Notes under the pieces: generated by a model
Told to the model about the DNA's origin: nothing
What the model saw: the letters and a program-made list of their open reading frames with translations, nothing else
Database searches by the model: none
Source of the DNA: Rhodoferax sp.
Lineage (GTDB): Bacteria; Pseudomonadota; Gammaproteobacteria; Burkholderiales; Burkholderiaceae_C
DNA: 57,754 nucleotides
Reading direction: 5' to 3'
Assembly (NCBI RefSeq): GCF_025354435.1
Contig: NZ_JANXMU010000051.1
Span: 1-57,754, forward strand
In this document: in pieces, positions 2,310 through 25,020 of the stretch
How the letters are laid out: each line of letters begins with the position of its first letter
How positions within the stretch are numbered: position 1 is the first letter of the stretch
Position numbers and translations under genes: made by a program

Positions 2310-2340
2310 GCGTGATAATGTCTTATCCGCCGGTCGAATA

Positions 2341-2376
2341 AGCACGAGTAGCTATTATTTATATAGCATTGATGGC
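2341..2376. repeat. Intergenic repeat family A, partial copy
   Basis: Contains GAGTAGCTATTATTTATATAGC and a GGCC end, the arms of the family A palindrome, but lacks the middle CTAGCG/CGCTAG pair. Confidence 0.4.
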
Positions 2377-2414
2377 CTTTTTCACACACCGACCCGGGTT
2401 AGCAAAAGGACACC

Positions 2415-3326
2415 ACGACTCCCAAGACGATTTTTATCACCGGCACCAATTCTAGCTTTGGCAAAGCCACTGTGGAGCGATTTGCCCAGGCAGGCTGAAG
2501 GGTGGCCGTGACTGTCAGAGACTTGGGCGCACCCCCCGGTCTGTTCAAGGACCTGCCCAGCGTCACGCTGTTTGCCTTGGATGTGACCGATTTTGCCCAG
2601 GTGCAAGCCGTGGCCAAGGAGGCCGTCCGCCAGTTCGGCAGCATTGACGTGGTGGTCAACTATGCCGGTTACTGCCTGATGGGGCCCACCGAGACCACCA
2701 GCATGGAACAAATCCAGTAGCAGTACGCCACCAATGTGTTTGGCGTATTTGCGGTGACCAAGGCCTTCACACCGCACTTTCGCGCCAACAACCAGGGCCG
2801 CTTCATCAACATCGCATCCGCCAGCGCGCAGTTCAAATACCCGTTTATTGCTGCCTAAGGCAGCAGCAAATGGGCGGTGCGCGGTATGACGGAAAGCCAG
2901 GACATCGAGCTGGCCCCCTACAACATCGAGGTCAAGACCATCTACCCCGGCCTGCATGCCACAAAGATATTTACCAAGCTCGACAGCGCCTCGGATGCCC
3001 ACCACCCGGCCATGCGGTTCTATCAAAAATATTTCGATACCTTCAACTCCGCCCAGACTGCGCTGACCCACGCCACCGCGCCCAGCAACATCGCCAACGC
3101 GGTTTTTACCACTGCAACGATATCCCGGGGCCCGCTGCACATCGTCTTTGGCGGTGATGCCAAGCTGTATGCTTTCTTCAAGAAAATACTGTCACAACGC
3201 GCCTTCCAAAGCATTCAAACCCGCAGCACCCTGCAACCCTTGTCGAAGCTGGAAATCGCGTTCGCCAAATGGATGTTTGGCTCCAATACCCGCCCGCTTG
3301 AAGTGGTGCTGGACACCCCCGCGTAA
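2415..3326 (+). pseudogene. Decayed short-chain dehydrogenase (SDR)
   Basis: One uninterrupted reading frame of about 303 codons gives a recognisable classical SDR, but it is broken four times with no frameshift. The initiator is ACG at 2415 (an ATG position, with AAAGGA upstream). TGA at 2496-2498 falls where Trp is usual before RVAVTVRD. TAG at 2718-2720 precedes QYATNVFG. TAA at 2856-2858 falls at the catalytic Tyr of YxxxK (AA-stop-GSSKWAVRG). Other motifs remain: TGTNSSFGKAT (cofactor loop), VVNYAG, and NIASASAQ with the catalytic Ser. The C-terminal third is open to the natural stop, so decay appears recent. It sits next to another decayed gene for an AraC regulator, a common partner. 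Confidence 0.85.
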
Positions 3327-3329
3327 CAC

Positions 3330-4345
3330 ATGGCCATGGTGGCTGACAGAATCCCGCTCCCCTGCATCGGCTTGGCCCGGGTGGCCTACCTGGGGTTGAA
3401 CGTAGACCAGGTTTTGCGCCTGGTCCATATCCCGCACAGCGTGCGCCAGCAAGCCCGGATGGCGCTGACCACCCGCCAACACTTCGCGCTGTGAAGCGCC
3501 ATCGAAATGCTGGCGAGCGATGCCTTGGTGGGCCTGCGCATCGGTGGCCATGCCCGGCCCGACCAGTTCGACCCGGCCTCTTTCGCCGCCTTGCACTCGG
3601 CCAACTTTGGCGAGGCCTTGCAACGGCTGGCGCGCTATAAACGCCTGTCGTGCCCGGAAGACATCTGCATGGTGCAAACCGGCAACCAGATGACTATTTC
3701 CTTTCATTGGCTACGCGCACAGGGCCAGGCACCCTGGTGTTGACGGACGCTGCCTTTGTCGCCATCCAATTGCTCCTGCACAGCGGCACCGGCCAAGCGC
3801 TAGCGCCGCTGTGGCTAGAGTTGAGCCACCCGCCGGGCGACACGTCTGCCGACGCCCAGCACTATGCCCGGTACTTTGGCTGCGAGGTCCGCATGGGTGC
3901 GGTGCAAGACGTGCTGGTGTACCCCCGGGCTACGCTGGACAACACCCTTTGCCACGGGTAATCCTGATCTTGTGGCGGCCCTGCTGCCGGGTTTGGACCA
4001 GCAGTTGGATGCCGCCGCACCCCAGGCCTTGGACCAGCAGGTCAAGTCGGTGCTGGCCCAGATGATGCACGGCGAACGCCCCAGTATCGAGGCCACTGCC
4101 CGCCACCTGTGCCTGAGCCCGCGCACCCTGCAACGCCGCCTGACGGAGATGCACACCAGCTACCAACCCATCCTCGACGAGGTCCGCCTGGACGTAGCCC
4201 AAAGCTGTTGGCCCACACCCCGATGGACCCCGGAGAAATTGCCTTCTATCTCGGCTTTGAAGAGGTCAATTCTTTTCAGCGCGCCTTCCACAAGTGGCAG
4301 TGGATGACACCCACATAGTGGCGCATGGCGGTGCATAACCCCTGA
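3330..4345 (+). pseudogene. Decayed AraC-family regulator (arabinose-binding-domain type)
   Basis: Reading across frames gives a full AraC/OruR-like regulator: an N-terminal ligand-binding domain (from MAMVADRIPLP to WLELSHPP) and a C-terminal double helix-turn-helix (ARHLCLSPRTLQRRL, then IAFYLGFEEVNSFQRAFHKW). Damage: TGA at 3492-3494; a one-base loss near 3735 (after GQ, frame 0 to 2); a shift back near 3945; a one-base loss in an A-run near 4200 (CAAAGC where CAAAAGC would keep AQKLLAHTP in frame); and TAG at 4316-4318 in the usual TPTQWR ending. After that stop the frame runs WRMAVHNP to TGA at 4343-4345. It starts 3 bases after the SDR pseudogene and was probably co-transcribed with it. 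Confidence 0.85.
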
Positions 4346-4445
4346 TGGAACAGTTTTAAATTCCAAGGAGAAATAGGACTTTGGAGCAAGCACTACATTT
4401 GCTAACAGCATTATTTACGATGGTGACTCGAGAATTCCCTCATTT

Positions 4446-5726
4446 TTAAGCTTCGACATAGATTGCGCGAAAGTCGTTGATGTTGGTGAAAGTGGGGCCA
4501 GTTAAAACCAGGCCTTCAATCGCAGCAAAAAAGCTGCCACTGTCGTTGTCGCATAGGGCGCTGTGTGGATCCAGGCCGCGTCTTCTTGCGCGGGCCAAAC
4601 TGTCAGGTGCTACCCATGCGCCAGCAGCTCCAGCATTGCCGTCAAGGCCGTCTGTGCCCGCTGAAAGCGCGTGGATTCTTGGGTGACCATCGAGTGCGAT
4701 TGCCAATGCCAGGGCAAATTCGGTATTGCGACCACCGCGACCCTTGCCTGTGACGGTCACGGTGGCTTCGCCGCCAGACAAAATCAGGCAGGGTGGTTTG
4801 AAAGGGTGGCCACGCTCCGCTACGCTCAGCGCAATAGCGGCGTGGGCTAAGGCCAGTTCGCGGGCTTCGCCCTCCATGGCATCAGATAGCACGTGACAGG
4901 GCACCTTGTGCTGCGTCGCCAATAAGCTAGCCGCAGCGAGTCCATCCCAGGCACAACTGACCAGATGACAGGTATGGCCTGACAGTCGTGGGTCTTCAGG
5001 TTTGATGGATTCCCAGTCGGCAGCCTCCAGGGCGCTACGGAGTTCGGTCGGTATTTCGATGCCGTAATGCACCAGCAAGGCCAATGCATCGTGGCAGGTG
5101 CTGGAGTCTGCCAACGTGGGGCCAGAGGCGACCAGGGCTGGATCGTCCCCCGGAATGTCGGAGATGACCAGTGACACTACCTTTGCGGGATAAGCCTGTG
5201 CCGCCAACCGTCCGCCCTTGATGGCCGAGAGGTGCCGTCGTACGGTGTTGATCTCACGGATTGGTGCACCTTTAAGCAGTAATGCACGCGTGATACGCTG
5301 CTTTTCTTGCAATAACAGGCCTGCCGTCGGCAAACAGCACAAAGCCGATCCTCCCCCTGAAACCAAGGCGATCACCAGATCATCTTTGGTTAAACCCGAG
5401 ATCGCTTGAAGTAGTTGCTCTGCGGCCTGTATGCTGCTTGCATCGGGTACCGGGTGGCTGCCTTCGATGCACCGGATGTGGTTTAGCGGCAAAGATGCGC
5501 CTGTGGGCACTACCACTACGCCTTCAAGCGGCTTCGGGTAGTGCAGTTCAACCGCATGCGCCATGGCGGCGGCGGCCTTGCCAAGGCCCACCACCACGAT
5601 GCGGCCCGATGGCGCGCTAGGTAAATATGCAGGAACGACTTTCAATGGATTGGCAGCAGCCAGTGCGGCTTGGTACAACTGAAGCTGCAATTCAATTTGG
5701 GACGGTATCTGTACAGGTGAAGTCAT
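4446..5726 (-). CDS. Glycerate 2-kinase (MOFRL family)
   Basis: The 426-residue protein has the two-domain layout of class II glycerate kinases (GckA/TtuD): GKAAAAMAHA near the N-terminus, GSHPVPD, the Gly-rich ALVSGGGSALCC loop, REINTVRRHLSAIKGGRL, ISDIPGDDPALVASGPT, and the C-terminal MOFRL region with GGRNTEFALALA and SAGTDGLDG. These enzymes phosphorylate D-glycerate with ATP to 2-phosphoglycerate, feeding lower glycolysis directly. The ATG at 5726 overlaps the upstream stop as ATGA, which fixes the start and indicates translational coupling. It is the last gene of the operon. With the GH63 hydrolase upstream its glycerate most likely comes from a glycosyl-glycerate. Confidence 0.93.
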   Translation of the reverse strand: MTSPVQIPSQIELQLQLYQAALAAANPLKVVPAYLPSAPSGRIVVVGLGKAAAAMAHAVELHYPKPLEGVVVVPTGASLPLNHIRCIEGSHPVPDASSIQAAEQLLQAISGLTKDDLVIALVSGGGSALCCLPTAGLLLQEKQRITRALLLKGAPIREINTVRRHLSAIKGGRLAAQAYPAKVVSLVISDIPGDDPALVASGPTLADSSTCHDALALLVHYGIEIPTELRSALEAADWESIKPEDPRLSGHTCHLVSCAWDGLAAASLLATQHKVPCHVLSDAMEGEARELALAHAAIALSVAERGHPFKPPCLILSGGEATVTVTGKGRGGRNTEFALALAIALDGHPRIHALSAGTDGLDGNAGAAGAWVAPDSLARARRRGLDPHSALCDNDSGSFFAAIEGLVLTGPTFTNINDFRAIYVEA

Positions 5727-6961
5727 AGACTTTGCTGTTTGGAGGGAGTTGTGACCAAGTCGTTTAGGCCGATTAGCGCTCGCCAAACATCGTAGCAAGC
5801 GCCCATGTTGTGGTAATCGACCTTGCCCGCAGGACTCTTCTCGCGCGTAAGGTTGAAGTTCTCACCCGTCAAGATGCGAAACCACGCACCCTGTTGGTGG
5901 TCCACAAAATGTTGCCAGCAGTAATCCCAGATGCGCTCGTACCAAGTCCAGTACATCGGGTCTCCAGTGCGTAGCGCCAGGAGGGCGGCGGCGGCTATGG
6001 ATTCGGCTTGTACCCAATGGTATTTAGCGGGGTCGCAAATGGCACCATCTGGAGCAAAGCCGTAATGGATGCCGCCATGCACGCCATCCCAGGCGGTGTG
6101 CATGGCGCGGTCAAACAGTTCGCGTGCTTTGGGGATGTGCCATGGACGGGGCATATGAACATCCAATTGGCATAGTAGCTTGCTCCACTCGGTGAAATGG
6201 CCCGGCTGGTATCCCCAGGGGCGAAAGATGTTGGAGCGGTCTTCCCGGTTGTAGTCCCAATCGGGTGACCAGTCTGCCCGGTAATGTTCCCAAACACCGC
6301 CGTCAGCCAGCGCAGCCTGCCGGACGGTGATGTTGTGCGCCAGCAATTCGGCCCGTGCCAGATAGTGTGGTTCACGGGTAGTTTCAAAGGCGGCAATGAG
6401 CGCTTCGCAGGTATGCATATTGGCGTTCTGGCCGCGGTAGCCGGACAGCACCCCGGCTGGCGAGGCGTCGTCTGCGTATAGCCCGGCATGCGCATCGAAA
6501 AACTGCTGCTCTGCCAGTGCGTAAGTGGACTGCAGCAACTCTGCCGCGCCCCCGATCCCTATGCGTTGGGCACGCGCCGCCGCCAACATGACAAAGGCCA
6601 GACCGTACATGTGGCGGGTTCGGTCGAGCGGCGCGGCTTGCCCATGGTCCCAACGGAGGGTCCAGTGGAAGCCTGGAGATTCGGCATCTCTGAATGCATT
6701 CTCCAAAAATTGCAAGGCGTGTGCGGCCCGTTCCTTGTACTCCGGTTTGCCACCGAGTTCAAAAGCCGTGGCGCAGGTGATGACAAAGCGTGTGGCACTG
6801 ACAAGATGGCGCGTGGTACGGTCGTAGACCGTGCCATCGTCCAGATAGAAGTGGTACATGCCACCGCTGGGGTCAACAGACTGTGGACCATAAAACGACA
6901 TGACATCCAGTACATGGGAACGCAGAAAATCCGGCGATCGGAAATCAGGGTGTGTGGTCAT
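5723..6961 (-). CDS. AGE-family sugar isomerase (mannose isomerase-like)
   Basis: The 412-residue protein belongs to the N-acylglucosamine 2-epimerase superfamily, an (alpha/alpha)6 barrel. Recognisable segments are SATRFV near residue 55, WTLRWDHGQ, RHMYGLAF, NANMHTCEALIAAFE, FRPWGYQPGHFTEWSKLL, and the His-bearing KYHWVQAESIAAA and KVDYHNMGACYDVWRAL, which correspond to active-site histidines of mannose/YihS-type aldose-ketose isomerases. Those enzymes interconvert mannose and fructose; relatives act on glucose, cellobiose, sulfoquinovose or GlcNAc. Both ends overlap neighbours by ATGA (GH63 upstream, glycerate kinase downstream). The context suggests D-mannose released by the hydrolase as substrate. 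No fructokinase is present in the window. Confidence 0.88.
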   Translation of the reverse strand: MTTHPDFRSPDFLRSHVLDVMSFYGPQSVDPSGGMYHFYLDDGTVYDRTTRHLVSATRFVITCATAFELGGKPEYKERAAHALQFLENAFRDAESPGFHWTLRWDHGQAAPLDRTRHMYGLAFVMLAAARAQRIGIGGAAELLQSTYALAEQQFFDAHAGLYADDASPAGVLSGYRGQNANMHTCEALIAAFETTREPHYLARAELLAHNITVRQAALADGGVWEHYRADWSPDWDYNREDRSNIFRPWGYQPGHFTEWSKLLCQLDVHMPRPWHIPKARELFDRAMHTAWDGVHGGIHYGFAPDGAICDPAKYHWVQAESIAAAALLALRTGDPMYWTWYERIWDYCWQHFVDHQQGAWFRILTGENFNLTREKSPAGKVDYHNMGACYDVWRALIGLNDLVTTPSKQQSL

Positions 6962-8292
6962 GGTTGCTGGGTTTTCTGGGTTTCGAACAAGATGAGCGCA
7001 ATAGCGGCGGTCCAGGAGAAATCAGGGCCACCCAAGCCCTCACCGGTATTCGGGCAAAAGTACTCGAATGGTCCCGATTGCTGGATCAGCCGCAAGCAAT
7101 CTGTGCGCAGACGTTGAGCCTGCGCTGCATGGCCGCATTCGGCCAGTCCCTCAGCCACCAGCCAATTGATATGCGGCCAAACCGCACCACGCCAATAGCG
7201 CCGGGGGTCCCAGCCTGGCTCACTCGGGTGGGTCGATGTCAGGCTGAAAAGGCTGGCATCTACATGCGCATCCAGGTGCTGCAGCAAAATGGCTGATTTT
7301 TGGGTATCGGCATCTCCGGTAAATACCTGGCCATACCAGGCCAAAAATGCCGCATGTGTTTTCTGCTCCAGACGCTGACCACTGCGCGTGTCCAGGCTGA
7401 CGTGCCGCCCCAGGGGCGTTGACCACAAACGGTCGATGGCGATGCAACCACGTGCATGCCAGCCACGCAGTTCTTGCGCTTCATCTGCCAAGCCCAGCAC
7501 GTCACACAGGTGTGCCAGATCCACATTGGCGCGCAGCAAAATGGCATTCAATGCAAAGTCAACAATACGCAGCGGACATTCATCGTAGATCTTTCGGGCA
7601 TCGAATTTGCATTCGCGGAAGAAGTCCAGCAAGTACACAAAACGGTCGTACTCTGCCTTGTGCGGCCGCATGCTGGCATCGACGACACCGGTGTCACGGC
7701 GCTGGTAGGCGCGGGTAGCGGCGGGTACCGCAGCCAATGCCGCATCCCAGGCGGGAGAGTTGTCGCTACCGGTTTCCCAGGGGTGGTAGCTGACCACCAG
7801 GCCTGTGTTTTCGGGGTCGCGGTCGCGGTACCACCATCGGTGCCACGCCATGAGTTGGGGCACGATGGTGCGGATATGTTGGTCGGCCTCCCCAGTGCGA
7901 CTACGCTCGTACATTTTGCGCACCATGGTGGCCAGCAACGGTGGCTGGGAGATGCTGGTTGTGGGGGGCGACAAGTGGCTGCCACCCCATTCCTTGGGAC
8001 CGGGGAAGTAGGAGTCTGCGGGCTTGTGGAAGACAATGCTGGGTACCAGGCCATTGTCCCATTGGCCTGACAGCAGTAATTCGACTTCCTGCCAGGCGCG
8101 TGGCTCGTCAAAAGTTTGCCAGCCTACGGCGTTGATAGCGGCGTCCCAGTTCCACTGGAACGGATAGAGGCGCGCAGACGGCACGGTGTAACCACCACGG
8201 TCATTGTTGCGCAGGATCTGTTGGTATTGCGCGGCCAGCGATGCTTCTTCTGAAGTACGCGCAGGATTGGAAGCGGAAATTGGCGTGTTCAT
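6958..8292 (-). CDS. GH63 mannosyl-/glucosylglycerate hydrolase
   Basis: The 444-residue protein matches the compact bacterial GH63 mannosylglycerate/glucosylglycerate hydrolases (MGH, GgH) in size and motifs: PSARLYPFQWNWDAA, QWDNGLVPSI, the acid-bearing HPWETGSDNSPAWD (Asp177, in the place of the known catalytic Asp), YWRGAVWPHINWL, and the C-terminal FEYFCPNTGEGLGG followed by FSWTAA with the catalytic Glu region. Such enzymes split alpha-glycosyl-D-glycerate into hexose and D-glycerate. No signal peptide is visible, so it acts on imported substrate. I chose the ATG at 8292; a TTG at 8304 adds four residues and has no better ribosome site. It overlaps the isomerase gene by ATGA. Confidence 0.88.
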   Translation of the reverse strand: MNTPISASNPARTSEEASLAAQYQQILRNNDRGGYTVPSARLYPFQWNWDAAINAVGWQTFDEPRAWQEVELLLSGQWDNGLVPSIVFHKPADSYFPGPKEWGGSHLSPPTTSISQPPLLATMVRKMYERSRTGEADQHIRTIVPQLMAWHRWWYRDRDPENTGLVVSYHPWETGSDNSPAWDAALAAVPAATRAYQRRDTGVVDASMRPHKAEYDRFVYLLDFFRECKFDARKIYDECPLRIVDFALNAILLRANVDLAHLCDVLGLADEAQELRGWHARGCIAIDRLWSTPLGRHVSLDTRSGQRLEQKTHAAFLAWYGQVFTGDADTQKSAILLQHLDAHVDASLFSLTSTHPSEPGWDPRRYWRGAVWPHINWLVAEGLAECGHAAQAQRLRTDCLRLIQQSGPFEYFCPNTGEGLGGPDFSWTAAIALILFETQKTQQP

Positions 8293-8319
8293 GGTGTGGG
8301 TCAATACAGGTTCTGGGTG

Positions 8320-9351
8320 CTAGTGGTGCGTTGCAGGTGTTGCAAGTAACTGGTCCTGAGCGTCATACCAACGCACATGTTCTGGCGCGACGGAAACGGG
8401 CAACAAGTCGCCTGCGCAGATGCGGTGGTGGTTGGGCAGGGACAGGCGTATTTTTTCGCCACCCAGCTCGCCATTGATTTGTTGTTTTTCACCCAGTGCC
8501 TCCACCACGCGGACCTTCACGCTGACTTGGCTTTGACCAGGTATGAAGTATTCAGGTCGAATACCTGCGCGCACTGCCTGGGCGGGGGCCGCGGTGGATG
8601 AGAGCGATACAGCTACATCGACTGGCATGAAGTTCATTGGCGGGTTGCCGATAAAGCTGCCGACGAAAGCCGTTTTGGGGTATTCATATACCTCCATAGG
8701 CGAGGCAAACTGCACGATTTCTCCGGCATGCATAACGGCGATGCGGTCGGCCAGACTCATGGCTTCGACCTGGTCATGGGTGACGTAGATGGTCGTGGTC
8801 TTGGTTTCTTGCAGCAGTGCCTTCAACTCGGTGCGCATCTCCAGACGCAGCAGGGCATCCAGGTTAGACAATGGTTCATCCATAAGCAGTACGTCGGGCG
8901 ACATGGCCAGGGCACGGGCTACCGCTACGCGCTGGCGCTGGCCACCAGATAGCTGGCCGGCATAGCGGCCAAGCAGGTGTTCAATGTGCATCAGCTTGGC
9001 GGCCCGCTGAACCTGTACATCAATGTTGGCTGCCGATTCTTTTGCCATTTTCAACCCGAAACCGATGTTCTGGCCGATGGTCATGTGCGGGAATACCGCG
9101 TAGTTTTGAAACACCATGGCAATCTTGCGCTTGCCTGGCGACAAACCATTGACGCGGCGATCGCCGATCATGAGCTCCCCGGCCGATTCGGTTTCCAGCC
9201 CTGCCAGGATGCGCAGCAGCGTTGTCTTGCCGCAGCCCGAGGGGCCAAGCAAAACGCAAAATTCCTGGTCGCGTACATCGAGCGAAACGGATTTGAGGAT
9301 GTGTGTGCTCATGAAATCTTTTTTCACGGCATTGATGGAAATGCGAGACAT
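8320..9351 (-). CDS. Sugar ABC transporter ATP-binding protein (MalK/UgpC type)
   Basis: The 343-residue ATPase has Walker A GPSGCGKTT (residues 36-44), Q-loop VFQNYAVFPHM, signature LSGGQRQRVAVARAL, Walker B VLLMDEPLSNLDA, the switch His in YVTHDQVEAM, and a C-terminal TOBE-like regulatory domain (AGIRPEYF onward). This is the CUT1/MalK arrangement. It powers import with the two permeases and binding protein encoded just upstream. There is a 77-base gap after the second permease gene and 27 bases before the hydrolase gene. Like other MalK-type ATPases it may serve as the only ATPase of the importer. Confidence 0.95.
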   Translation of the reverse strand: MSRISINAVKKDFMSTHILKSVSLDVRDQEFCVLLGPSGCGKTTLLRILAGLETESAGELMIGDRRVNGLSPGKRKIAMVFQNYAVFPHMTIGQNIGFGLKMAKESAANIDVQVQRAAKLMHIEHLLGRYAGQLSGGQRQRVAVARALAMSPDVLLMDEPLSNLDALLRLEMRTELKALLQETKTTTIYVTHDQVEAMSLADRIAVMHAGEIVQFASPMEVYEYPKTAFVGSFIGNPPMNFMPVDVAVSLSSTAAPAQAVRAGIRPEYFIPGQSQVSVKVRVVEALGEKQQINGELGGEKIRLSLPNHHRICAGDLLPVSVAPEHVRWYDAQDQLLATPATHH

Positions 9352-9428
9352 AAGCTCTGTCCTTGGAAATAGCGTTGTACGTTGGGACTAGGCCTGCGGG
9401 TCACCGGCCTGTTGCGATGCGGCAAGCC

Positions 9429-10274
9429 TTATCGGTTGCTGATGCCCCACATGCTGAAGAGGTACTTGCGCACCAAAAAGATAAACACGATCGGCGGCAC
9501 GATCATCAAAAAAGCACCGGCAAACCGGAAATGCAGCGGTGCTTCCTCCAAGGTGGTGAACAGGAACGCTGTGAGCGTGCGTTCATGCAAGGTCAGCAGC
9601 GTGGCCGCAAAAACCTCATTCCACGAAATCACGAACGAGAAGATCATCGTGGCCACAATCCCTGGTAGCGCTAAAGGTACAACGATGCGGGCGAATGCCC
9701 CTAGCGAAGAGCATCCCAGGGTTAAGGCCGCTTCCTCCAGTTCACGTGGAATCCCCATGAACAGGCTGGATGTCACCAAGATCGCAAAAGGCAGAGCCAA
9801 TGCGGTGTGTACCACCGCCACACCAAACACAGTGTCGTAAATGCCCCATTCAATAAAGCGGGTGATCAGCGGTAAAGCCAAGATCGCCAAGGGGAATGCC
9901 CGTGTCATCACGATGATCAAACGGTAGAGCTGGTCACCGCGAAACAAGTAGCGCGCCAGCGCATAGCCAGCAGGTGCACCCAGCAAGGTGGCCATCACCA
10001 TAGTAAGGCTGGCGACTTTGACGCTGTTAAGCAACGCGGGCCACACACCTGCAAACCCAATGAAATACTTCAAGGTATCCAGTGTGTAAGCATCCGTGGC
10101 AAAAAAGCTTTTGGGCCATGACAGGATTTGCGCCTTGGTAGACAGTGCCGACAGCGCGATCAATACCACAGGCAGCAGCCACAGTGCTGTAAACAGAACT
10201 GCACCCAGCGTAAGCCATGAGGCCCGTCCGCCTGGCACCAGCACGGGTTTGGTCGGCAATGATGCGGTGCTCAT
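9429..10274 (-). CDS. Sugar ABC transporter permease (MalG-like)
   Basis: A 281-residue inner-membrane protein with six hydrophobic segments. It carries the EAA loop ELEEAALTLGCSSLGAFARIVVPLALPG that docks on the ATPase, and a C-terminal MIVPPIVFIFLVRKYL segment. The ATG at 10274 overlaps the stop of the preceding permease gene as ATGA, which argues against a longer upstream-extended frame whose extra 41 residues are not membrane-like. It is the second permease of the predicted glycosylglycerate importer. Confidence 0.93.
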   Translation of the reverse strand: MSTASLPTKPVLVPGGRASWLTLGAVLFTALWLLPVVLIALSALSTKAQILSWPKSFFATDAYTLDTLKYFIGFAGVWPALLNSVKVASLTMVMATLLGAPAGYALARYLFRGDQLYRLIIVMTRAFPLAILALPLITRFIEWGIYDTVFGVAVVHTALALPFAILVTSSLFMGIPRELEEAALTLGCSSLGAFARIVVPLALPGIVATMIFSFVISWNEVFAATLLTLHERTLTAFLFTTLEEAPLHFRFAGAFLMIVPPIVFIFLVRKYLFSMWGISNR

Positions 10275-11119
10275 GACAGGGTCTCCCGGCGTACGTTCAA
10301 GGTTTTCATAAACACCAACGTGGCAGCGATCGATAGACCCAGAATCACCATCGCATAAGCTGCGGCCACATGGCTGTTCTGGTAGGCGTTTTGCCACTGG
10401 TAGGCCTCGCCCACCAGGACCGAGTAGTCGCGCCCTGCAAGTGCAAAGACCACGGCGAAAACTTCAAAAGCCATCACCGTGCGCAAGATCAACGCGGTCT
10501 GCAAACTGGGTTTTATCAACGGCAGCGTAACGTGCCAGAAACGCTGCCATGCTGTCGCGCCGAAGACGCGGGCTGCCTCGTCATACTCTTTGGGAATCAC
10601 CTGCAGGCCCGACACAATGATGATCAGCACGATAGGTGTGGCGCGCCAGACTTCGGCCACCACAATGGCAATAAACAAGGTCGTGGGCGACAGGTAGGAC
10701 AGCATATCCAAAGGGCCAGTGGTGAGGCCTATTCCATTCAAAAAACTCGGTAAAAAGCCGCGTTGTGTAAGGATGGCTAGCCACACCAGGCCGGCGGCTA
10801 GGTCAGAGATACCCAGTGGCAAGGCCCAGGCATACAAAAATCCTTGGCGACCAAAAGGCAGCTTGCCCAGCATGTAGCCGAGCCCCAGAGAGAGGCTGAT
10901 TTGCAAAGGCACTACCACCGCGACTAAGCTTAGCGTGTTGCGCATGGAGAGCGAAAAATTCGCATCGGTAGCCATTTTGGTCAGGAACGACAGTGTCCAG
11001 CCGCCATCGTCACCGCGCAGAGCAATCAGCACGGTTTCTGCCAGCGGCCATACCAGCACCAGCACGAGAAATAGTGCGCTGGGCAAAATCAGCGCATAGG
11101 GGGTGAATGAACGGTTCAT
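10271..11119 (-). CDS. Sugar ABC transporter permease (MalF/UgpA-like)
   Basis: A 282-residue membrane protein with an N-terminal segment FTPYALILPSALFLVLVLVWP typical of UgpA-like permeases, five further hydrophobic spans, and the EAA loop EYDEAARVFGATAWQRFWHVTLPLIKP. The ATG at 11119 lies 11 bases after the binding-protein stop; a TTG nine codons upstream is a less likely start. It pairs with the MalG-like partner through an ATGA overlap. Confidence 0.92.
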   Translation of the reverse strand: MNRSFTPYALILPSALFLVLVLVWPLAETVLIALRGDDGGWTLSFLTKMATDANFSLSMRNTLSLVAVVVPLQISLSLGLGYMLGKLPFGRQGFLYAWALPLGISDLAAGLVWLAILTQRGFLPSFLNGIGLTTGPLDMLSYLSPTTLFIAIVVAEVWRATPIVLIIIVSGLQVIPKEYDEAARVFGATAWQRFWHVTLPLIKPSLQTALILRTVMAFEVFAVVFALAGRDYSVLVGEAYQWQNAYQNSHVAAAYAMVILGLSIAATLVFMKTLNVRRETLS

Positions 11120-11130
11120 AGCATTGCCAT

Positions 11131-12426
11131 TCAGTCCACCGAGCAATGCGTGCCCTGTGTCTTGTCAGGTGCCCAGCAAGGAATTTTCACTTCGTCCAGC
11201 AACGCCTTCATCGCTTCACCCTGGGCCTTCAAGACACCCGCAATGTCTTCGCGGCGCAGCACGATGCGCTGGAAAGCGTCCAGGTAAATCTTGTTGAATT
11301 CACCTCCCTTCGCACCCAAGCCCACAGGCACCGTGGCGGCCCTAGCGTCCTTGGCGCCGGATTGTTGCTCCAGCGCATTAGCAACCATCGCAATACCTTC
11401 ACCAAGTTTCACTTCTGTGGTTTTCACCACCGGATAAAAGCCGGTTTCTGCCAGGGTGATAGCCTGAGTGGTGGATCTCGTCAGGTGGTCAATGAGCCGG
11501 CCAGCAGCCTCCTTGTCGGGCGCAGACTTGGGGATCGACAGGCCCGCCAACACCAACATATAGCCACGTCCACGTGGTCCAGCGGGTGCGGGAAAAGCCA
11601 CAAAATCACCGGGTTTTTCCTTCAAAGCAGGCAGTAGCCGCGCTGCATGGTCAAAGGCAATCCACACTTCGCCGCTGGCCATAGGTTCTTCCATGAAGCC
11701 GTAGGCGGTTGACCTTGCATTGGTGTATTGCCACAGATCCCTAAAGTCCGCCCACATCTTTTGCGCATCAACCGAGCGGAAAGTGCGTGCCATACCCCCC
11801 GTGTAGCTGGGGTATAGATAGCCCTGGAAGAAGCGGTGCATCAAACCCTTGGGGCCTGCGGGGAAACCCAGCTTGGCCTCACCCGTTGCATCCTTGATGG
11901 CTTTCGCCCATTGCTTGAGCTGGTCGTATGTCAAGGCGTTGATATCAGCACCCTTTGGCAGGTAGGGCAAAGCTTTTTTGTTGGCCATCATGATGTAGCT
12001 GCTGTACATCCAGGGAACCATCCGTTGGCGCTCGCCGCCGAAGGTGCCAACGCTGGTGAATGCACTGTTGAAGCTGCGGGTTTTGGCCAGACTGGCATAC
12101 AACGCATCCAGATCGGAAAGTGCGCCTTTGTCATTCAGCGTTGCCAGGCTACTATCAAGAGCCCCCGCCACGCCAACCTGCCCTTTGCCGGCCGCCACTT
12201 CGGCAAGCAAGCGAGTCAGGAACGGCCCGTCGTCCTCTGGCGTGAACTTCACGGTATCGGACATGCCCTTGAGAATGACGTTGCGTACCTTGTCGGCCTC
12301 ATCTACTGGCCTGAGTTGCGTGGATACAAAATTGACCTCTGCGGCCCAGGTAGGCTTGGCCACCGTACCGCAAAGAAGACTGACCGCCCATGCGCAGGCG
12401 ATGACGTAGTTGCTAAATTTTTTCAT
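11131..12426 (-). CDS. Sugar ABC transporter substrate-binding protein
   Basis: The 431-residue protein starts with a Sec signal peptide (residues 1-28, cleavage near TWAA) followed by an extracellular-solute-binding family 1 fold: an N-terminal lobe with VRNVILKGMSDTVKFTPEDDGPFL, the conserved GEVWIAFDHAARLLPAL hinge region, and AGLSIPKSAPDKEAAGRLIDHLT near the C-terminus, typical of MalE-like proteins. It would deliver the substrate in the periplasm to the two permeases. It lies 26 bases after the porin gene in the same operon. Substrate identity is inferred only from the intracellular enzymes. Confidence 0.93.
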   Translation of the reverse strand: MKKFSNYVIACAWAVSLLCGTVAKPTWAAEVNFVSTQLRPVDEADKVRNVILKGMSDTVKFTPEDDGPFLTRLLAEVAAGKGQVGVAGALDSSLATLNDKGALSDLDALYASLAKTRSFNSAFTSVGTFGGERQRMVPWMYSSYIMMANKKALPYLPKGADINALTYDQLKQWAKAIKDATGEAKLGFPAGPKGLMHRFFQGYLYPSYTGGMARTFRSVDAQKMWADFRDLWQYTNARSTAYGFMEEPMASGEVWIAFDHAARLLPALKEKPGDFVAFPAPAGPRGRGYMLVLAGLSIPKSAPDKEAAGRLIDHLTRSTTQAITLAETGFYPVVKTTEVKLGEGIAMVANALEQQSGAKDARAATVPVGLGAKGGEFNKIYLDAFQRIVLRREDIAGVLKAQGEAMKALLDEVKIPCWAPDKTQGTHCSVD

Positions 12427-12452
12427 AGCTGTCGCCGTATGGTTGTGTTGGA

Positions 12453-13679
12453 TTAAAAAATGTAGATGGCACCAACACTGATGCCTCGCAGATCATTGCC
12501 TGGCTTGAGAACGCCATAGCCATTGGTGCCGAAGTTGTAGTTGGCGTTGGCTCCGTTACGCAGTTGGGTCATGAAGCCGTAGACCGAAAACTGTTTGTCA
12601 ACGGCGTAGTCGTAACCCAGAACCAGTTGGCGGGCACCGCTATCGGGTCCCTTGACCAGGGCCAGCGTGCCACTGCAGGAGTTGAAAGTTGCGGAAGCGT
12701 TGGGTGTTCCGCAGACCACGGTGCCGTTCGGTGCGCTGCCTCCCACATTGCCTGCGTGGCCATAGCGCATCACTACTTTTCCAGAGCCTACATAGACGTT
12801 GCCCGTGATGGTTGCAAATGGTCGCGTCACCGTACTCCCTCCGGCCGCTTCATAGCGGAAGACATTGGCGCCAGCACCGATGTCACCAATTCCTTCAAAC
12901 ACGTATTTGGCGCCCAGACGGATGGCGCTGTCTCCTAGCCCTGTTGTGCCTGAATAACGCACATTCTGGTGAAGCTCATAACCCAAGCCTGCAGAAAACG
13001 GTCCCTTTGCGTAGGTTAGCGCAGTAGAAATGACCCGCCCCTTGCGCGCTGAGTTGGCAGGGGCATCACTCCCTACCGAGCCGTCTGCGTTCGGTAAGCC
13101 AAGTTGTACGGCCACACCAAAACCGGACATATTGGGACTGTCGTATCGCAACGACTTTTGCTGGCGCCGGGTGAAACCGATTAGTTTGTCTTCCCCACCC
13201 ATCATCTGAATTTCACCGTCATCGGCAATCCCCGTGGCATAGAAGACATCGGTGTAAGAACCCATTTGCTTCACCGGCGTATCGATGCGTCCAGCCCGCA
13301 GTCGGCCAAACGCTCCCGTAGCGCCAAGCCAGTTTTCCCTGCCTGCCAGGTTGCCAGATCCGGCTGTAGGGTTCAGGCTGGAATCAATAAACACCTCACC
13401 CGTAATGCCGTTGGGCAACAGGCGACTGAAAGTGAAATTAATACGGGATGCATTAGCACCGAAGACGCGGTCTACGGAGCCAGCCAAACCAGGGTCGTTG
13501 GCCCCGCCAGGCGTGTAGCCGGACACGCTGGTGTGGTCGTACGACACATTCAAACGCCCACCGATCTGTAGCGTATTTCCCGCGTACTCCAATTTGAACT
13601 GGGCCTGGGCAAGCGCCGAGGCTGCTGCGAGTGCTACGCCAAAGGCGGATTGAATTTTTAGTTTGTTGAAAAAGTGCAT
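12453..13679 (-). CDS. Outer-membrane porin (Burkholderiales type)
   Basis: The 408-residue protein is a general trimeric porin of the Gram-negative Porin_4 type: signal peptide (residues 1-25, ending ALAQA), first strand FKLEYAGNTLQIGGRLNVSYDH, repeated amphipathic strands, GLGYELHQNVRYSG, and a terminal aromatic residue in VGAIYIF as needed for BAM insertion. The ATG at 13679 has AGGAGA upstream; an in-frame start 22 codons earlier lacks this. As first gene of the operon it is expected to admit the osmolyte through the outer membrane. A LacI-type palindrome lies upstream. Confidence 0.93.
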   Translation of the reverse strand: MHFFNKLKIQSAFGVALAAASALAQAQFKLEYAGNTLQIGGRLNVSYDHTSVSGYTPGGANDPGLAGSVDRVFGANASRINFTFSRLLPNGITGEVFIDSSLNPTAGSGNLAGRENWLGATGAFGRLRAGRIDTPVKQMGSYTDVFYATGIADDGEIQMMGGEDKLIGFTRRQQKSLRYDSPNMSGFGVAVQLGLPNADGSVGSDAPANSARKGRVISTALTYAKGPFSAGLGYELHQNVRYSGTTGLGDSAIRLGAKYVFEGIGDIGAGANVFRYEAAGGSTVTRPFATITGNVYVGSGKVVMRYGHAGNVGGSAPNGTVVCGTPNASATFNSCSGTLALVKGPDSGARQLVLGYDYAVDKQFSVYGFMTQLRNGANANYNFGTNGYGVLKPGNDLRGISVGAIYIF

Positions 13680-13714
13680 TTTCTGGTCTCCTGTTGGATT
13701 TTTAACGTGTTTAC

Positions 13715-13726
13715 AAAAACGTTTTT
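13715..13726. promoter_or_regulatory. Candidate LacI-family operator, porin side
   Basis: AAAAACGTTTTT is a perfect 12-base palindrome with the central CG typical of LacI/GalR operators, 36 bases upstream of the porin start and facing the divergent lacI-type gene. A one-base variant lies at 13860-13871. Confidence 0.6.
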
Positions 13727-13765
13727 GGAATGAGGTGTATTGCACCTTTTTTGCTTATTTTTGTC

Positions 13766-13787
13766 ATCCCCGTAAAAACCCGGGGAT
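13766..13787. other. Hairpin in divergent promoter region
   Basis: ATCCCCG and CGGGGAT form a 7-base inverted repeat around an 8-base AC-rich loop, between the porin and LacI genes. It could be a regulator site or an RNA hairpin in one leader. Confidence 0.35.
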
Positions 13788-13859
13788 AGCGCCCCTCATA
13801 CCAGCCGGAAGCAGTCTGTTCACCTCAACAGTCCCTTGCCCAGGCACTGCGTAAAATCC

Positions 13860-13871
13860 AAAAAGGTTTTT
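13860..13871. promoter_or_regulatory. Candidate LacI-family operator, regulator side
   Basis: AAAAAGGTTTTT differs by one central base from the perfect palindrome at 13715-13726 and lies 24 bases before the LacI-family ATG. The centres are 145 bases apart, compatible with looping or autoregulation. Confidence 0.45.
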
Positions 13872-13895
13872 ATTCTTCAGCCACCCACCACATTC

Positions 13896-14930
13896 ATGTC
13901 CATCGTTCTACTCGCCAAGGCCCTAAATTTGTCGGTATCTACCGTCTCGCGGGCGCTGAATGGCTATGACGACGTTGCCGCCGATACACGCCAGCGCGTG
14001 GTAGCCATGGCCAAGGAGATGAACTACCGGCCCAATCCGGGAGCGCGGCGGCTGGTGTCAGGCACGACCCGGGCCATCGGTGTCACATTGCCGATGCTGG
14101 AGGCGGGCGACGAGTTCATTGACTGGATGTACTCGGGCCTGCTCGCTGGTGTATCAGCCGCACTGGATGGTTCTGGCTACTACCTGTTTGCCACCAGCGC
14201 GGGGAGCCGGGGCATGGAGAGTGAAATGGCGCTGTACCGCAACTTCATCGAAGGCCGCTGGGCAGATGCATTACTGTTTGTTCGAACCCACACCAATGAC
14301 CCGCGCGTCAAACTGGCGCAGGAAGCAGATATCCCTTTTGTGACCTACGGGCGCACCGAAAGTACCGAGCCGTATACCTGGATCGATACTGACAACGAAG
14401 GCGCATTTGCTATGGCCGTCAACCGCCAGCTAGGTTTTGGGCACCGGCGCATCGCTTTGCTGAACGGGCCATCAGAATACTATTTTGCACACCTGCGTGC
14501 GTTGGGCTATAGCCGCACGTTACAGGCTGCTGGGGTTGAAGTGGACCCTTTACTTATCAAGGAAGGGCAATTAACAGTCCAAAGTGGCTACAACCTTACG
14601 ATGCAGTTGCTCAACCACCCTAATCGGCCAACCTCCATCGTGTGCGCAGTGGACAGCATGGCCTTTGGGGCTATGGCAGCGTGCCGAGAAAGCGGGTTGG
14701 TGGTGGGGCGCGATATCTCCATCATTGGCTATAGCAACTCGCCCATATCGCCATTTTGCGACCCCCCTTTGACTACGATCGAACACCGAGTATTTGAAAA
14801 TGGTCGACATGTCGGCGATGCCTTGCTCCGGCTTTTGAACGGTAACACTCAGGTAGCGAGCGGCTATTTGGAACGCGTAACCTTGGTTCCCAGGGCATCC
14901 GATGGGCCACGAAACAACGTACAAAAATAA
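13896..14930 (+). CDS. LacI-family transcriptional regulator
   Basis: The 344-residue protein has the N-terminal LacI helix-turn-helix and hinge (LAKALNLSVSTVSRALNG, then NYRPNPGARRLVSG) followed by a periplasmic-binding-like effector domain (GVTLPML, TYGRTEST, GFGHRRIALLNGP, IVCAVDSMAFGAMAA, IIGYSNSP). The ATG at 13896 puts the helix-turn-helix at the very N-terminus as usual; an upstream frame from 13836 would add 20 odd residues. It is divergent from the porin-ABC-hydrolase operon with two palindromes in the shared region. It is probably the sugar-responsive repressor of that operon and of itself. Confidence 0.93.
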   Translation: MSIVLLAKALNLSVSTVSRALNGYDDVAADTRQRVVAMAKEMNYRPNPGARRLVSGTTRAIGVTLPMLEAGDEFIDWMYSGLLAGVSAALDGSGYYLFATSAGSRGMESEMALYRNFIEGRWADALLFVRTHTNDPRVKLAQEADIPFVTYGRTESTEPYTWIDTDNEGAFAMAVNRQLGFGHRRIALLNGPSEYYFAHLRALGYSRTLQAAGVEVDPLLIKEGQLTVQSGYNLTMQLLNHPNRPTSIVCAVDSMAFGAMAACRESGLVVGRDISIIGYSNSPISPFCDPPLTTIEHRVFENGRHVGDALLRLLNGNTQVASGYLERVTLVPRASDGPRNNVQK

Positions 14931-14980
14931 GGCTCTAGCGTATGTACTACCTGCGCTAGTAGCTATATAAATAATAGCAA
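14931..14980. repeat. Intergenic repeat family A copy
   Basis: CTAGCG at 14935-14940 pairs with CGCTAG at 14953-14958, flanked by GGCT on the left and AGTAGCTATATAAATAATAGCA on the right. It lies between the convergent LacI and racemase genes and could act as a bidirectional terminator hairpin. Confidence 0.65.
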
Positions 14981-14986
14981 TCCGGT

Positions 14987-15718
14987 TCAGCGCCCTGACA
15001 GCGCCATCAGCGCGGGTGACAGGCCGACCCACGCACCGGGCAAGCCGGTATCGGTGGGCATGCCATCAACCCACATCTGTGCCTGGCGGGCACCGGCCAG
15101 CACGCTGTCGATGACCGGCACGCTGACTTCGCTTTGGATCTGGGCGGCCATACCCGCCAGACCGGCACCGCCCAGAATCACGGCTTGCACACCGTGCTGC
15201 TCGGCCACCGTGCGGCAGGCGGTGGCCAGCAGGGCGCGGGCGGCGACCGGGTCGGCCGCCAGTTCGGCACCGGTGGCTTCGACCGTGTGGATGTGGACCA
15301 GTTGCTCGCCATAGCCCAGGCTGTGGGCCAGGCGCTGCAGCATCGGCTTCCAGGCCACACCGCCGGTAACCACGGCAAAGCGGCCATGCTGTGCGGCCTC
15401 GAAAAATGCGGCCTCGGCCAGGCCGGTAATCGGGGCGGCGCTGCATTCGCGCAAGGCCAGCAAACCCGGGTCGCCAAAACAGCCGATCAGCACCGCGTCG
15501 GGGGTCGGGCCGCCGTCCGCCCGCCACGCCGCCCAGGCATCCAGCGTGGCGTGTGCGGCAATGGCGTAGCTGGCCTCAGAGGAGATATAGCGGGCACCGA
15601 AACGTGCAGTCACCATGTGCACCGCCACATCCGGGCCGCTGGCCTGCAGGATGTGGGTGCGCAGCAGCGCGGTGACGCTGTCGCTGGTATTGGGGTTGAT
15701 GACCAGCAGGTGGCGCAT
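14987..15718 (-). CDS. Asp/Glu/hydantoin-type racemase
   Basis: The 243-residue protein fits the two-domain Asp/Glu/hydantoin racemase family: N-terminal LLVINPNTSDSVTALL, first catalytic-Cys segment VLIGCFGDPGLLALRE, GLAEAAFFEAA, FAVVTGG, and a second half with AVILGGAGLAG, where many members have a second Cys; here Ala/Gly occupy that region. Hydantoin racemases interconvert 5-substituted hydantoin enantiomers, while relatives act as allantoin racemases or maleate isomerases. The ATG at 15718 is 4 bases after the GntR stop. The missing second Cys makes racemase activity uncertain. It is last in the importer cluster. Confidence 0.8.
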   Translation of the reverse strand: MRHLLVINPNTSDSVTALLRTHILQASGPDVAVHMVTARFGARYISSEASYAIAAHATLDAWAAWRADGGPTPDAVLIGCFGDPGLLALRECSAAPITGLAEAAFFEAAQHGRFAVVTGGVAWKPMLQRLAHSLGYGEQLVHIHTVEATGAELAADPVAARALLATACRTVAEQHGVQAVILGGAGLAGMAAQIQSEVSVPVIDSVLAGARQAQMWVDGMPTDTGLPGAWVGLSPALMALSGR

Positions 15719-23508: not shown

Positions 23509-24153
23509 TCAAGCTGCCGCGATTTGCCGCAATGCCTGCTCAAACACCTCGGGCGGCTGACCGCCGGAGATCAGGTGCCGGTCATTGATGATGATGGCGG
23601 GTACCGAGTGGATACCTTGGCTGGTGTAGAACTGCTCGCGTTCACGCACGGCATCGGCAAATTCATTAGATTCCAGAATGGCCTGTGCCCGCACTGGGTC
23701 CAGCCCCACTTGTTCGGCCACCTGCACCAGCAAGGTATGGTCGCTGGGGTTTTGGCCCAGGGTGAAGTACGCATCGAATAACGCCTGCTTCAAAGCGTGC
23801 TGGTGGCCTTCAAGCTCGGCCCAGTGCAGCAATCGGTGTGCATCGAAGGTGTTGTAGATGCGGTTGCGCTGGCCCAGGTTGAACGTAAAGCCCAACTCGG
23901 CCCCACGGGCCCGGATGTTTTCTTTGTTGGCGGCCGCCTGCGCTGGGGTGGAGCCGTATTTGCGCGCCAAGTGCTCGGTGGTGTCTTCGCCTTCAGGGGC
24001 CATCTGGGGGTTGAGTTCAAACGGCTGGAAGTGCAATTCGGCCGTAATGCTGTCACCCACACGCGCCAGCGCCTGCTCTAGCGACTTCAAACCCACCACA
24101 CACCAGGGGCAGGACACATCCGAGACGAAATCAATTTTGAGTGAAGTAGCCAT
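23509..24153 (-). CDS. DsbA-family oxidoreductase (FrnE-like)
   Basis: A 214-residue thioredoxin-fold protein with active-site CPWC (Cys15, Cys18) right after the first strand, an inserted helical domain, and the cis-Pro loop SVPAIIINDRHLISGGQ. There is no signal peptide, so it acts in the cytoplasm, like FrnE/2-hydroxychromene-isomerase-related DsbA proteins linked to oxidative-stress tolerance or polyketide formation. It stands alone, next to the gene-free region with DnaA boxes. Confidence 0.9.
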   Translation of the reverse strand: MATSLKIDFVSDVSCPWCVVGLKSLEQALARVGDSITAELHFQPFELNPQMAPEGEDTTEHLARKYGSTPAQAAANKENIRARGAELGFTFNLGQRNRIYNTFDAHRLLHWAELEGHQHALKQALFDAYFTLGQNPSDHTLLVQVAEQVGLDPVRAQAILESNEFADAVREREQFYTSQGIHSVPAIIINDRHLISGGQPPEVFEQALRQIAAA

Positions 24154-24204
24154 ATTTTTTCCTTGTCTTGAAAAGCTGTGGATAGAGCTGGCATAACCAG
24201 GCAG

Positions 24205-24213
24205 TTATCCACA
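24205..24213 (+). promoter_or_regulatory. Exact DnaA box
   Basis: TTATCCACA, the consensus DnaA 9-mer, with the near-match TGTGGATAG in opposite orientation 20 bases to its left. Confidence 0.65.
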
Positions 24214-24347
24214 GGCAACGCGATAACTTAAAAGTTGTTCATTTTGGCGTGACACCAGAAAAGCAGGGTCACGCACACCTGGCAACACGGGATAAGCTGT
24301 TGATTAAAAAGGATAAAACAGGCTTACCCACAGAAGAGCCGTGTGCT

Positions 24348-24362
24348 TACTACTACTACTAT
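24348..24362. promoter_or_regulatory. DnaA-trio-like repeat
   Basis: TACTACTACTACTAT; the complementary strand gives four 3'-GAT-5' trios, the single-strand DnaA contact motif found beside DnaA boxes in bacterial origins. Confidence 0.5.
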
Positions 24363-25020
24363 GTATTAATAGAACCATTAGAAGAATAGCCAAACACAAA
24401 GTCCGTTGGGATTCAGTGGATTTTTAGCTTACCCAATGTAGTTTTCAGGCCCCTTTCTTTGCAAAACAGGAAAGTCGCGGCCGCCATTCCATCTCGTACG
24501 GCTTTGTGCACCTGTTGGTACATACTTTTGCACGCCCTTGATTTGGGGTTAAGAGCTTTTTTTTGTAAATTGTTGATATAAAACAACAAATTAGTACAAA
24601 TACTTAGTTCAGCTAAGTAACTAAATTACTACAGTTCTTTTTGTCCGAAAGTGCTCCACAAACCGCATATAAAGCGAATTTTGTGAGTGAAAGAGGCGGG
24701 GATTTCTGCGTTCTCCTGTTTCGTCTTGTTTCTTTCAAGAACGTAAAAACTGTACGTACGATGAAATTTTTGTAACAAACTTACATAATCTTCAAAGAAA
24801 TTTACAGAGCGTTTACACAACCAGTCTGAAAGACCTTGTGGTGAGAAAGTAGGTGGCAGCGGGGATTGGTTTTGTGCCACGAAGGGCAAAAGCAAAGGGT
24901 GCAGTTCAGTAAGCCTGAATTTTCAGGATTTCGTGGCTGGGGGTTTCCTCCGGTCAACTTTAGCCACACCCAGTTGGGTGTTCAAAGTCGTTACTTAAAA
25001 GACCAACGGAGATAACAAAG

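Follow-up and report, generated by a model that had tools for sequence, protein, structure and literature searches.

A candidate LacI-regulated operon for scavenging of glycosylglycerates in a Rhodoferax genome

We examined a 57,754-nucleotide contig of Rhodoferax sp. (NZ_JANXMU010000051.1, hereafter the window) from a genome of 4.66 Mb in 89 contigs. Eight minus-strand genes running from position 13679 down to 4446 encode a porin, an ATP-binding cassette (ABC) importer, a hydrolase of family GH63, an AGE-family isomerase and a glycerate kinase, and a lacI-type gene diverges from them. Bacteria, archaea and algae use glycosylglycerates as osmolytes, and we consider it probable that these genes form a LacI-repressed operon for scavenging 2-O-alpha-glycosyl-D-glycerates, with mannosylglycerate (MG) the most likely substrate and glucosylglycerate (GG) probably taken too. 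All nine genes were present on checking, and the gene list, families and LacI regulator given in a preliminary description of this DNA were borne out by their coordinates and by Pfam, in which every family assigned to the operon and LacI proteins scored above its gathering cut-off (Table 1). From porin to glycerate kinase the junctions measure, in order, 26, 11, -4, 77, 27, -4 and -4 nt; the gaps of less than 80 bases described earlier are thus confirmed (the widest is 77 nt), as are the ATGA overlaps, which account for all three junctions of -4 nt. Overall, the sequence comparisons support the earlier proposal of a self-contained operon for glycosylglycerate import and catabolism.

In the pathway that we propose, the porin would pass the anionic glycoside over the outer membrane and the binding protein would deliver it to the ABC importer. 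The cytoplasmic GH63 hydrolase would free D-glycerate and a hexose, and the glycerate 2-kinase would yield 2-phosphoglycerate. If the substrate is MG, the AGE enzyme would turn mannose into fructose, which a fructokinase encoded elsewhere would phosphorylate; if it is GG, glucose would be the substrate of a ROK kinase from another locus. The repressor would occupy a sole operator at 13714-13727 and be released when the glycoside or a product of it appears.

The hydrolase and its relatives

By homology, the hydrolase is a GH63 glycosylglycerate hydrolase. Its MGH1-like domain matches Pfam PF22422 at 338 bits (positions 1-356 of 356), and its nearest relatives in the PDB by phmmer are the Thermus entries 2z07 and 4wva (370 bits), with at most 222 bits to the entries for mycobacterial glucosylglycerate hydrolase (GgH). 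We mapped the substrate contacts of the mycobacterial structure (PMC6608630, cited like the other papers here for the passages concerned) by eye through the phmmer alignment, and found 17 of the 19 mapped residues kept, together with both catalytic residues, Asp177 and Glu410 in the window. The placement of Asp177 in HPWETGSDNSP by the preliminary description is correct if the gene starts at the ATG at 8292. The five direct polar contacts to glycerate in the solved enzyme (Tyr36, Trp40, Tyr88, Arg216 and Tyr375; PMC6608630) are all retained, the glycerate-binding residues of the Rhodoferax protein being Tyr43, Trp47, Tyr95, Arg209 and Tyr366.

The hydrolase leaves the choice between MG and GG undecided, because characterized GH63 enzymes take both: those of Thermus and Selaginella split the two with similar efficiency, and the mycobacterial enzyme prefers GG almost tenfold over MG (PMC6608630). 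We considered and rejected the GH63 residues as proof of MG. Among the residues named near the C2 hydroxyl only mycobacterial Gln434 differs (Phe425 in the window), and this position is uninformative for MG, being Phe in all 21 aligned rows whatever the neighbouring genes; it is also Phe in Thermus.

To place the operon among its relatives we took the best 80 of at least 580 GH63 matches, a sample that leans toward the window's nearer kin, and fetched 20 further neighbourhoods from 28 other genomes having a GH63 match. Removal of three copies (L113, L114 and L123, copies of L034, L058 and L091) from these 100 loci left 97, among which near-copies remain (L078/L079 and L050/L053/L054). Neighbouring genes were mechanical reading frames within 8.5 kb of GH63, scored against the genes of the window or individually selected kinases and transporters with bit thresholds that we set; absences are soft because contig ends cut some loci. 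With the window's own genome counted each time, a search at an E-value of 1e-20 placed GH63 relatives in 7 of 299 genomes of the family, 6 of 369 of the class and 18 of 398 of the phylum. The isomerase was present in 14 of 299 sampled phylum genomes, the window's own again included. Three same-genus genomes in the family search had no GH63 relative at this E-value (a fourth, G1035, was not among the genomes searched for GH63). In a GH63 tree, which omits L113, L114, L116 and L117 and retains L123, the window's enzyme groups with that of an Opitutae metagenome-assembled genome (MAG; support 100/93); five Burkholderiales importer loci join the pair next (100/92), and the gammaproteobacterial loci bearing an AGE gene form the neighbouring group.

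Table 1. Features of the predicted operon and its surroundings in the window
Feature	Position	Strand	Evidence and remarks
lacI-type repressor gene	13896..14930	+	Divergent, ATG start checked; Pfam LacI 41.6 bits, Peripla_BP_3 107.5 bits
Predicted LacI operator CAAAAACGTTTTTG	13714..13727		Palindrome, 34 nt ahead of porin start codon
Outer-membrane porin gene	12453..13679	-	Pfam Porin_4 103.5 bits
Solute-binding protein of ABC importer	11131..12426	-	Pfam SBP_bac_8 77.9 bits; pLDDT 90.9 (AlphaFold)
ABC importer permease 1	10271..11119	-	Pfam BPD_transp_1 60.8 bits
ABC importer permease 2	9429..10274	-	Pfam BPD_transp_1 66.3 bits; ATGA overlap with permease 1
MalK/UgpC-type ATPase of importer	8320..9351	-	Pfam ABC_tran 116 bits; NCBIfam UgpC 390 bits, below cut-off of 432
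GH63 glycosylglycerate hydrolase gene (by homology)	6958..8292	-	Pfam MGH1-like_GH 338 bits; ATG start at 8292
AGE-family isomerase gene, probably D-mannose isomerase	5723..6961	-	Pfam GlcNAc_2-epim 317 bits; ATGA overlap with GH63
Class II glycerate 2-kinase gene	4446..5726	-	Pfam DUF4147 270 bits, MOFRL 127 bits; ATGA overlap with isomerase
Variable chromosomal slot holding the operon	2312..15002		Between rdgC and racemase/ABC block

The isomerase and the fate of the hexose

Our best evidence for mannose as a product is the repeated recruitment of an AGE isomerase beside GH63. An AGE gene lies near GH63 in 8 of the 97 loci, all eight of them gammaproteobacterial. We built an AGE tree of 43 rows, 34 of them unlinked isomerases (those returned as loci from among the matches), and inspected the neighbourhoods of 15. 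The window's isomerase joins three isomerases of its own family (100/99) that have no GH63 in their neighbourhoods. The GH63-linked isomerases of the Gammaproteobacteria sit elsewhere in the tree, one of them (L044) beside unlinked ones, and branches with good support require the GH63-link label to change at least three times. The two genes have thus come together repeatedly, and this favours mannose as a product and MG as one of the substrates. A fructokinase-like PfkB kinase (threshold 200 bits) is present in 4 of the 8 AGE loci versus 0 of the 89 others, where weak PfkB matches near L034 and L112 (55 and 61 bits) fall below the threshold. Two of the four kinases, those between GH63 and AGE in L036 and L039, were checked against NCBIfam and matched its fructokinase model best (216 and 215 bits; cut-off 450). 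Such a kinase beside GH63 and the isomerase would complete a route from mannose to fructose 6-phosphate. Isomerases of the clade also adjoin PfkB-type kinases in five of the 15 inspected neighbourhoods (L185, L186, L187, L190 and L191).

Comparison with solved structures gave 467 bits to 3gt5 and 440 bits to 5x32, the D-mannose isomerase of Marinomonas (PMC7762179), versus at most 131 bits to YihS-type enzymes and 75 bits to cellobiose epimerases. The protein is therefore closer to 5x32 than to the other solved AGE enzymes of known activity, and the histidine motifs pointed out in the preliminary description align with those of 5x32 when the alignment is read by eye. A related isomerase converts 67.9% of mannose and 5.4% of glucose to fructose (PMC7762179).

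The preliminary description had favoured the mannosyl over the glucosyl form on the grounds that glucose would not need the isomerase. That reasoning depends on the enzyme's being a mannose isomerase, as we infer it to be. The repeated GH63-isomerase pairing and the fructokinase-like kinases speak for the argument, but its either/or form is weakened, as is any reading limited to MG, by the dual specificity of GH63 enzymes (PMC6608630) and by an importer of this type that occurs with a phosphorylase resembling YcjM. The latter was found on a Meiothermus taiwanensis plasmid (L215, 1778-10022), which carries genes for LacI, a binding protein with 50% identity to that of the window, permeases, an ATPase and GH63, followed by a "sugar phosphorylase"; the cluster adjoins CRISPR-associated genes. 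This phosphorylase is 46% identical to E. coli YcjM (513 bits), with at most 166 bits to solved phosphorylases of sucrose or glucosylglycerol, and YcjM is listed as a characterized glucosylglycerate phosphorylase (PMC8950772). When YcjM was compared with the 100 loci and three plasmid loci, five homologues were found, in L215 and in the Woeseiaceae loci L033, L037, L042 and L043. Such clusters suggest that GG is handled in some hosts, and both compounds seem to be handled in others. Two of the Woeseiaceae loci (L033 and L042) hold GH63, an AGE isomerase and the YcjM-like phosphorylase together; they are candidate dual MG/GG loci and also weaken an either/or choice. A plasmid of Catenovulum adriaticum (L214, 9252-11589) has a TonB receptor, SSS symporter, glycerate kinase and GH63 in a row, followed by an unnamed 396-aa protein and a distant AGE protein (26 bits to the window's).

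The predicted glycerate kinase carries both DUF4147 and MOFRL domains and matches 2b8n at 270 bits; it scored below the cut-offs of two NCBIfam glycerate kinase equivalogs (227 of 550 and 178 of 670 bits). The host genome has three MOFRL glycerate kinase genes. Among the relatives, a glycerate kinase is found near GH63 in 19 of the 97 loci, including 6 of the 8 gammaproteobacterial AGE loci. A ROK kinase is near GH63 in 10 of 97. In L034 it directly follows GH63, at the position held by AGE and glycerate kinase in the window. As for kinases that might serve the operon from elsewhere, the host genome contains seven matches to PfkB and six to ROK, of which two fall in the same gene, and a profile search of it found no PF02685 glucokinase. 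A ROK protein on another contig (C42) scores 418 bits to the kinase after GH63 in a Polaromonas locus.

Importer and regulator

A homologue of the binding protein was found near GH63 in 42 of the 97 relatives, and both permeases and the ATPase are present in all 42. Recurrence of this set, binding protein, two permeases, ATPase and GH63, in these relatives and in Meiothermus indicates that the grouping is more than chance. The search for the gene order in related genomes proposed in the preliminary description thus recovered the importer-GH63 part; the isomerase was not part of it in those 42 loci, and among the loci seen the window alone combines this importer with an AGE gene. The binding protein is 45-57% identical to its homologues in 26 chosen relatives. 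Because its sequence gave weak matches in the PDB, we predicted its fold, using 27 sequences (pLDDT 90.9). Among the 50 Foldseek matches listed were beta-glycoside, maltose and UgpB-type binding proteins with a probability of 1.00, TM-scores by query of 0.60-0.72 and identities of 13-20%. The predicted fold is thus of the sugar-binding-protein type, which fits a small glycoside or glycerol-ester-like ligand and names none.

Mannosylglycerate uptake in E. coli by the mngR-mngA-mngB system uses a phosphotransferase system (PTS), followed by cleavage with a GH38 mannosidase, and no ABC importer is known to take part. The Rhodoferax operon would likewise serve uptake and cleavage of MG, but the PTS and GH38 are features of mng only: by Pfam, neither a PTS permease nor a GH38 mannosidase is among the eight operon genes. 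The earlier suggestion of ABC uptake in place of the PTS agrees with the importer genes present, but the arrangement is not peculiar to this genome. Uptake of glycosylglycerates by heterotrophs is, to our knowledge, poorly described, and we found no characterized ABC importer for these compounds in the open-licence literature searched. The importer-GH63 set offers a candidate glycosylglycerate transporter family in Rhizobiales, Rhodobacterales-type and Burkholderiales genomes, and the binding protein is a ready candidate for ligand tests.

Upstream of the operon lies the 14-base palindrome CAAAAACGTTTTTG, which is identical letter for letter in two relatives (L108 and L065). Its consensus, CAAAANCGNTTTTG, has one site in the 4.66 Mb genome, this palindrome, and the backwards pattern has none. 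We identified 52 relatives with a LacI gene near GH63, and the consensus occurs without mismatch in 13 of them in the 330 nt before the LacI helix-turn-helix codons, compared with 0 of 52 for the reversed control; the count omits L074, whose exact site a separate scan lists. A count by eye gave 16 more of the 52 with exactly CCAAAACGTTTTGG as their best site, and the rest have weaker sites or none. Exact sites were found with both importer types and with TonB-type clusters. The palindrome may define a glycosylglycerate regulon. A generic LacI pattern allowing two mismatches gave 29 matches against a mean of 23.9, no better than chance, and was dropped in favour of the palindrome. Scans for promoters and terminators gave nothing above shuffles.

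The window's LacI best matches that of a gammaproteobacterial MAG with a TonB/SSS-type GH63 cluster (L108, 8869-9996; 410 bits), versus 278 to 305 bits for the Burkholderiales importer loci. The regulator may therefore have come with a different kind of cluster, and its kinship may be one more sign that the operon is composite.

Competing explanations, known systems and the genomic slot

Several observations weigh against the proposed operon function or against MG as its substrate. At 341.5 bits, the hydrolase falls below the 550 bits needed for the NCBIfam glucosylglycerate hydrolase (NF047898) and is therefore not filed under that equivalog; likewise, the isomerase reaches 189.8 of the 600 bits needed for the D-mannose isomerase (NF051846). 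The position of mycobacterial His78 is Ser85 in the window, the only Ser among 21 aligned rows (18 His, 2 Gln). Sequence matches of the binding protein in the PDB were weak, two of the three being iron-binding proteins. No isomerase gene was found within 8.5 kb of GH63 in any of the 42 relatives that share the window's importer type. Among solved structures the isomerase matches 3gt5 best, an entry named as an N-acetylglucosamine 2-epimerase for which we know of no assay. Genes beside the nearest isomerases (L180, L181 and L183) resemble those of glucose catabolism, judged by eye without a family search, so that the enzyme may instead act on glucose or fructose. The best fructokinase candidate among three host PfkB genes scored (contig C55) reaches 126 bits, the cut-off being 450, and the region ahead of the operon gave no sigma-70-like promoter in a simple scan.

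A rival reading is that the operon serves GG alone, with an isomerase that is incidental or acts on glucose and fructose. The company of the nearest isomerases would fit this, as would the pairing of the same importer family with a YcjM-like phosphorylase in Meiothermus, the occurrence of GG as an osmolyte of bacteria and cyanobacterial consortia (PMC6599011, PMC5507952), and five importer-bearing relatives of the same family (L034, L041, L058, L112 and L117) that have a ROK kinase and no isomerase. However, the sugar of the ROK kinases could not be told from family scoring, and two further loci (L045 and L115) have the importer with neither a ROK kinase nor an isomerase near. The isomerase gene also overlaps GH63 by 4 nt, its coupling to GH63 is repeated, with a fructokinase-like kinase in half of the cases, and a related isomerase is poor on glucose (5.4%; PMC7762179). 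We therefore regard a function limited to GG as rather unlikely. More doubtful still is a different small alpha-glycoside, for example trehalose or glucosylglycerol, as the hydrolase's substrate, which the public label "trehalase family glycosidase" would suggest. Pfam Trehalase does match the protein, but with 61 bits against 338 for the MGH1-like model. All five direct glycerate contacts are kept, the mycobacterial enzyme is inactive on glucosylglycerol and glucosylglycolate (PMC6608630), and a glycerate kinase gene accompanies GH63 in the operon and in 19 of 97 relatives. We give very little weight to the idea that an importer for one sugar came by chance to lie beside enzymes for another. 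The isomerase, glycerate kinase and porin do lie outside the commonly conserved importer-GH63 set, but the genes share one strand with overlapping reading frames, and the GH63 enzyme and the isomerase, each rare (18 of 398 and 14 of 299 genomes), are neighbours in the window as well as in 8 of 97 GH63 loci. An importer with unrelated enzymes was rejected on the overlapping frames and the repeated pairings.

Among 15 plasmid records of GH63 genes listed (there were 87 further ones), 12 bear the name trehalase family glycosidase or neutral trehalase, and annotation can therefore easily hide the pathway.

The proposed scavenging of MG, with GG taken too, has partial counterparts among known systems. 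As an enzyme alone, the nearest solved relative is the Thermus thermophilus mannosylglycerate hydrolase (2z07, 4wva), of the same GH63 family and with the same catalytic pair. GgH of Mycolicibacterium hassiacum shares the 17 of 19 contact residues but differs at Gln434 (Phe in the window) and His78 (Ser), and is thought to mobilize an internal store (PMC6608630), unlike the scavenging proposed here. The closest known whole is the E. coli ycjMNOPQRSTUV-ompG operon under YcjW, with its GG phosphorylase and OmpG (PMC6599011), which likewise combines a LacI regulator, ABC importer genes, a porin and a glycosylglycerate-splitting enzyme. YcjW and one or both ycj permeases match the window's LacI and permeases, but YcjN has no match to its binding protein at an E-value of 1e-5. 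The ycj operon has a phosphorylase in place of GH63, and no AGE isomerase or glycerate kinase is annotated in it. Gammaproteobacterial clusters of TonB receptor, SSS symporter, GH63 and AGE share the hydrolase and isomerase, most with a glycerate kinase and some with a fructokinase, but have a TonB receptor, a sodium symporter and a ROK-type regulator where the window has a porin, an ABC importer and LacI. The parts are thus of known kinds and the combination looks new: no description of a porin, ABC importer, GH63, isomerase, glycerate kinase and LacI together was found in the literature searched, and the literature on MG with red algae, regulon or ABC transporter held nothing on such an operon. 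A regulon reconstruction was sought in PMC5507952, where the passage concerned merely mentions the compound.

The operon occupies a slot that varies within the genus. We compared four of the seven other same-genus genomes (G243, G1035, G162 and G039). All four match the window on the rdgC side and in the block from about 15003 on, and leave the stretch between unmatched, with the exception of weak ATPase similarity in three. In its place, G243 and G1035 have about 11.5 and 11.8 kb of other DNA, and G162 and G039 about 1.3 and 0.8 kb. In the G243 slot, Pfam identifies a GH2 enzyme, a hybrid histidine kinase and a regulator of the ArsR type; an ABC ATPase can be recognized as well. G+C content in the slot is 0.572, compared with 0.61-0.64 outside. 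These data suggest a swappable cassette, gained here or lost in the others. We tentatively extend this to a broader proposal, in which a conserved LacI repressor and operator may govern a widespread, often mislabelled glycosylglycerate regulon with exchangeable importer and hexose modules. Here a mannose branch of isomerase and glycerate kinase would have taken the place of the ROK glucose branch in the operon, so that a cassette for GG would now serve MG or both compounds, at a site where relatives hold another sugar cassette or almost nothing.

The other cassette spans 2332-13855 (L209) and 2360-14183 (L210) in two same-genus genomes. In the window, gene remnants lie at 2877-4307, between rdgC and the operon. 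One is the remnant of an AraC-type regulator, whose N-terminal domain (3650-3961) is out of frame with its helix-turn-helix (3864-4307). Another, at 2877-3326, has no Pfam match and looks dehydrogenase-like by eye. Farther along the window, G+C content drops to 0.498 in one 2-kb step (24001-26000), compared with about 0.59-0.60 on either side.

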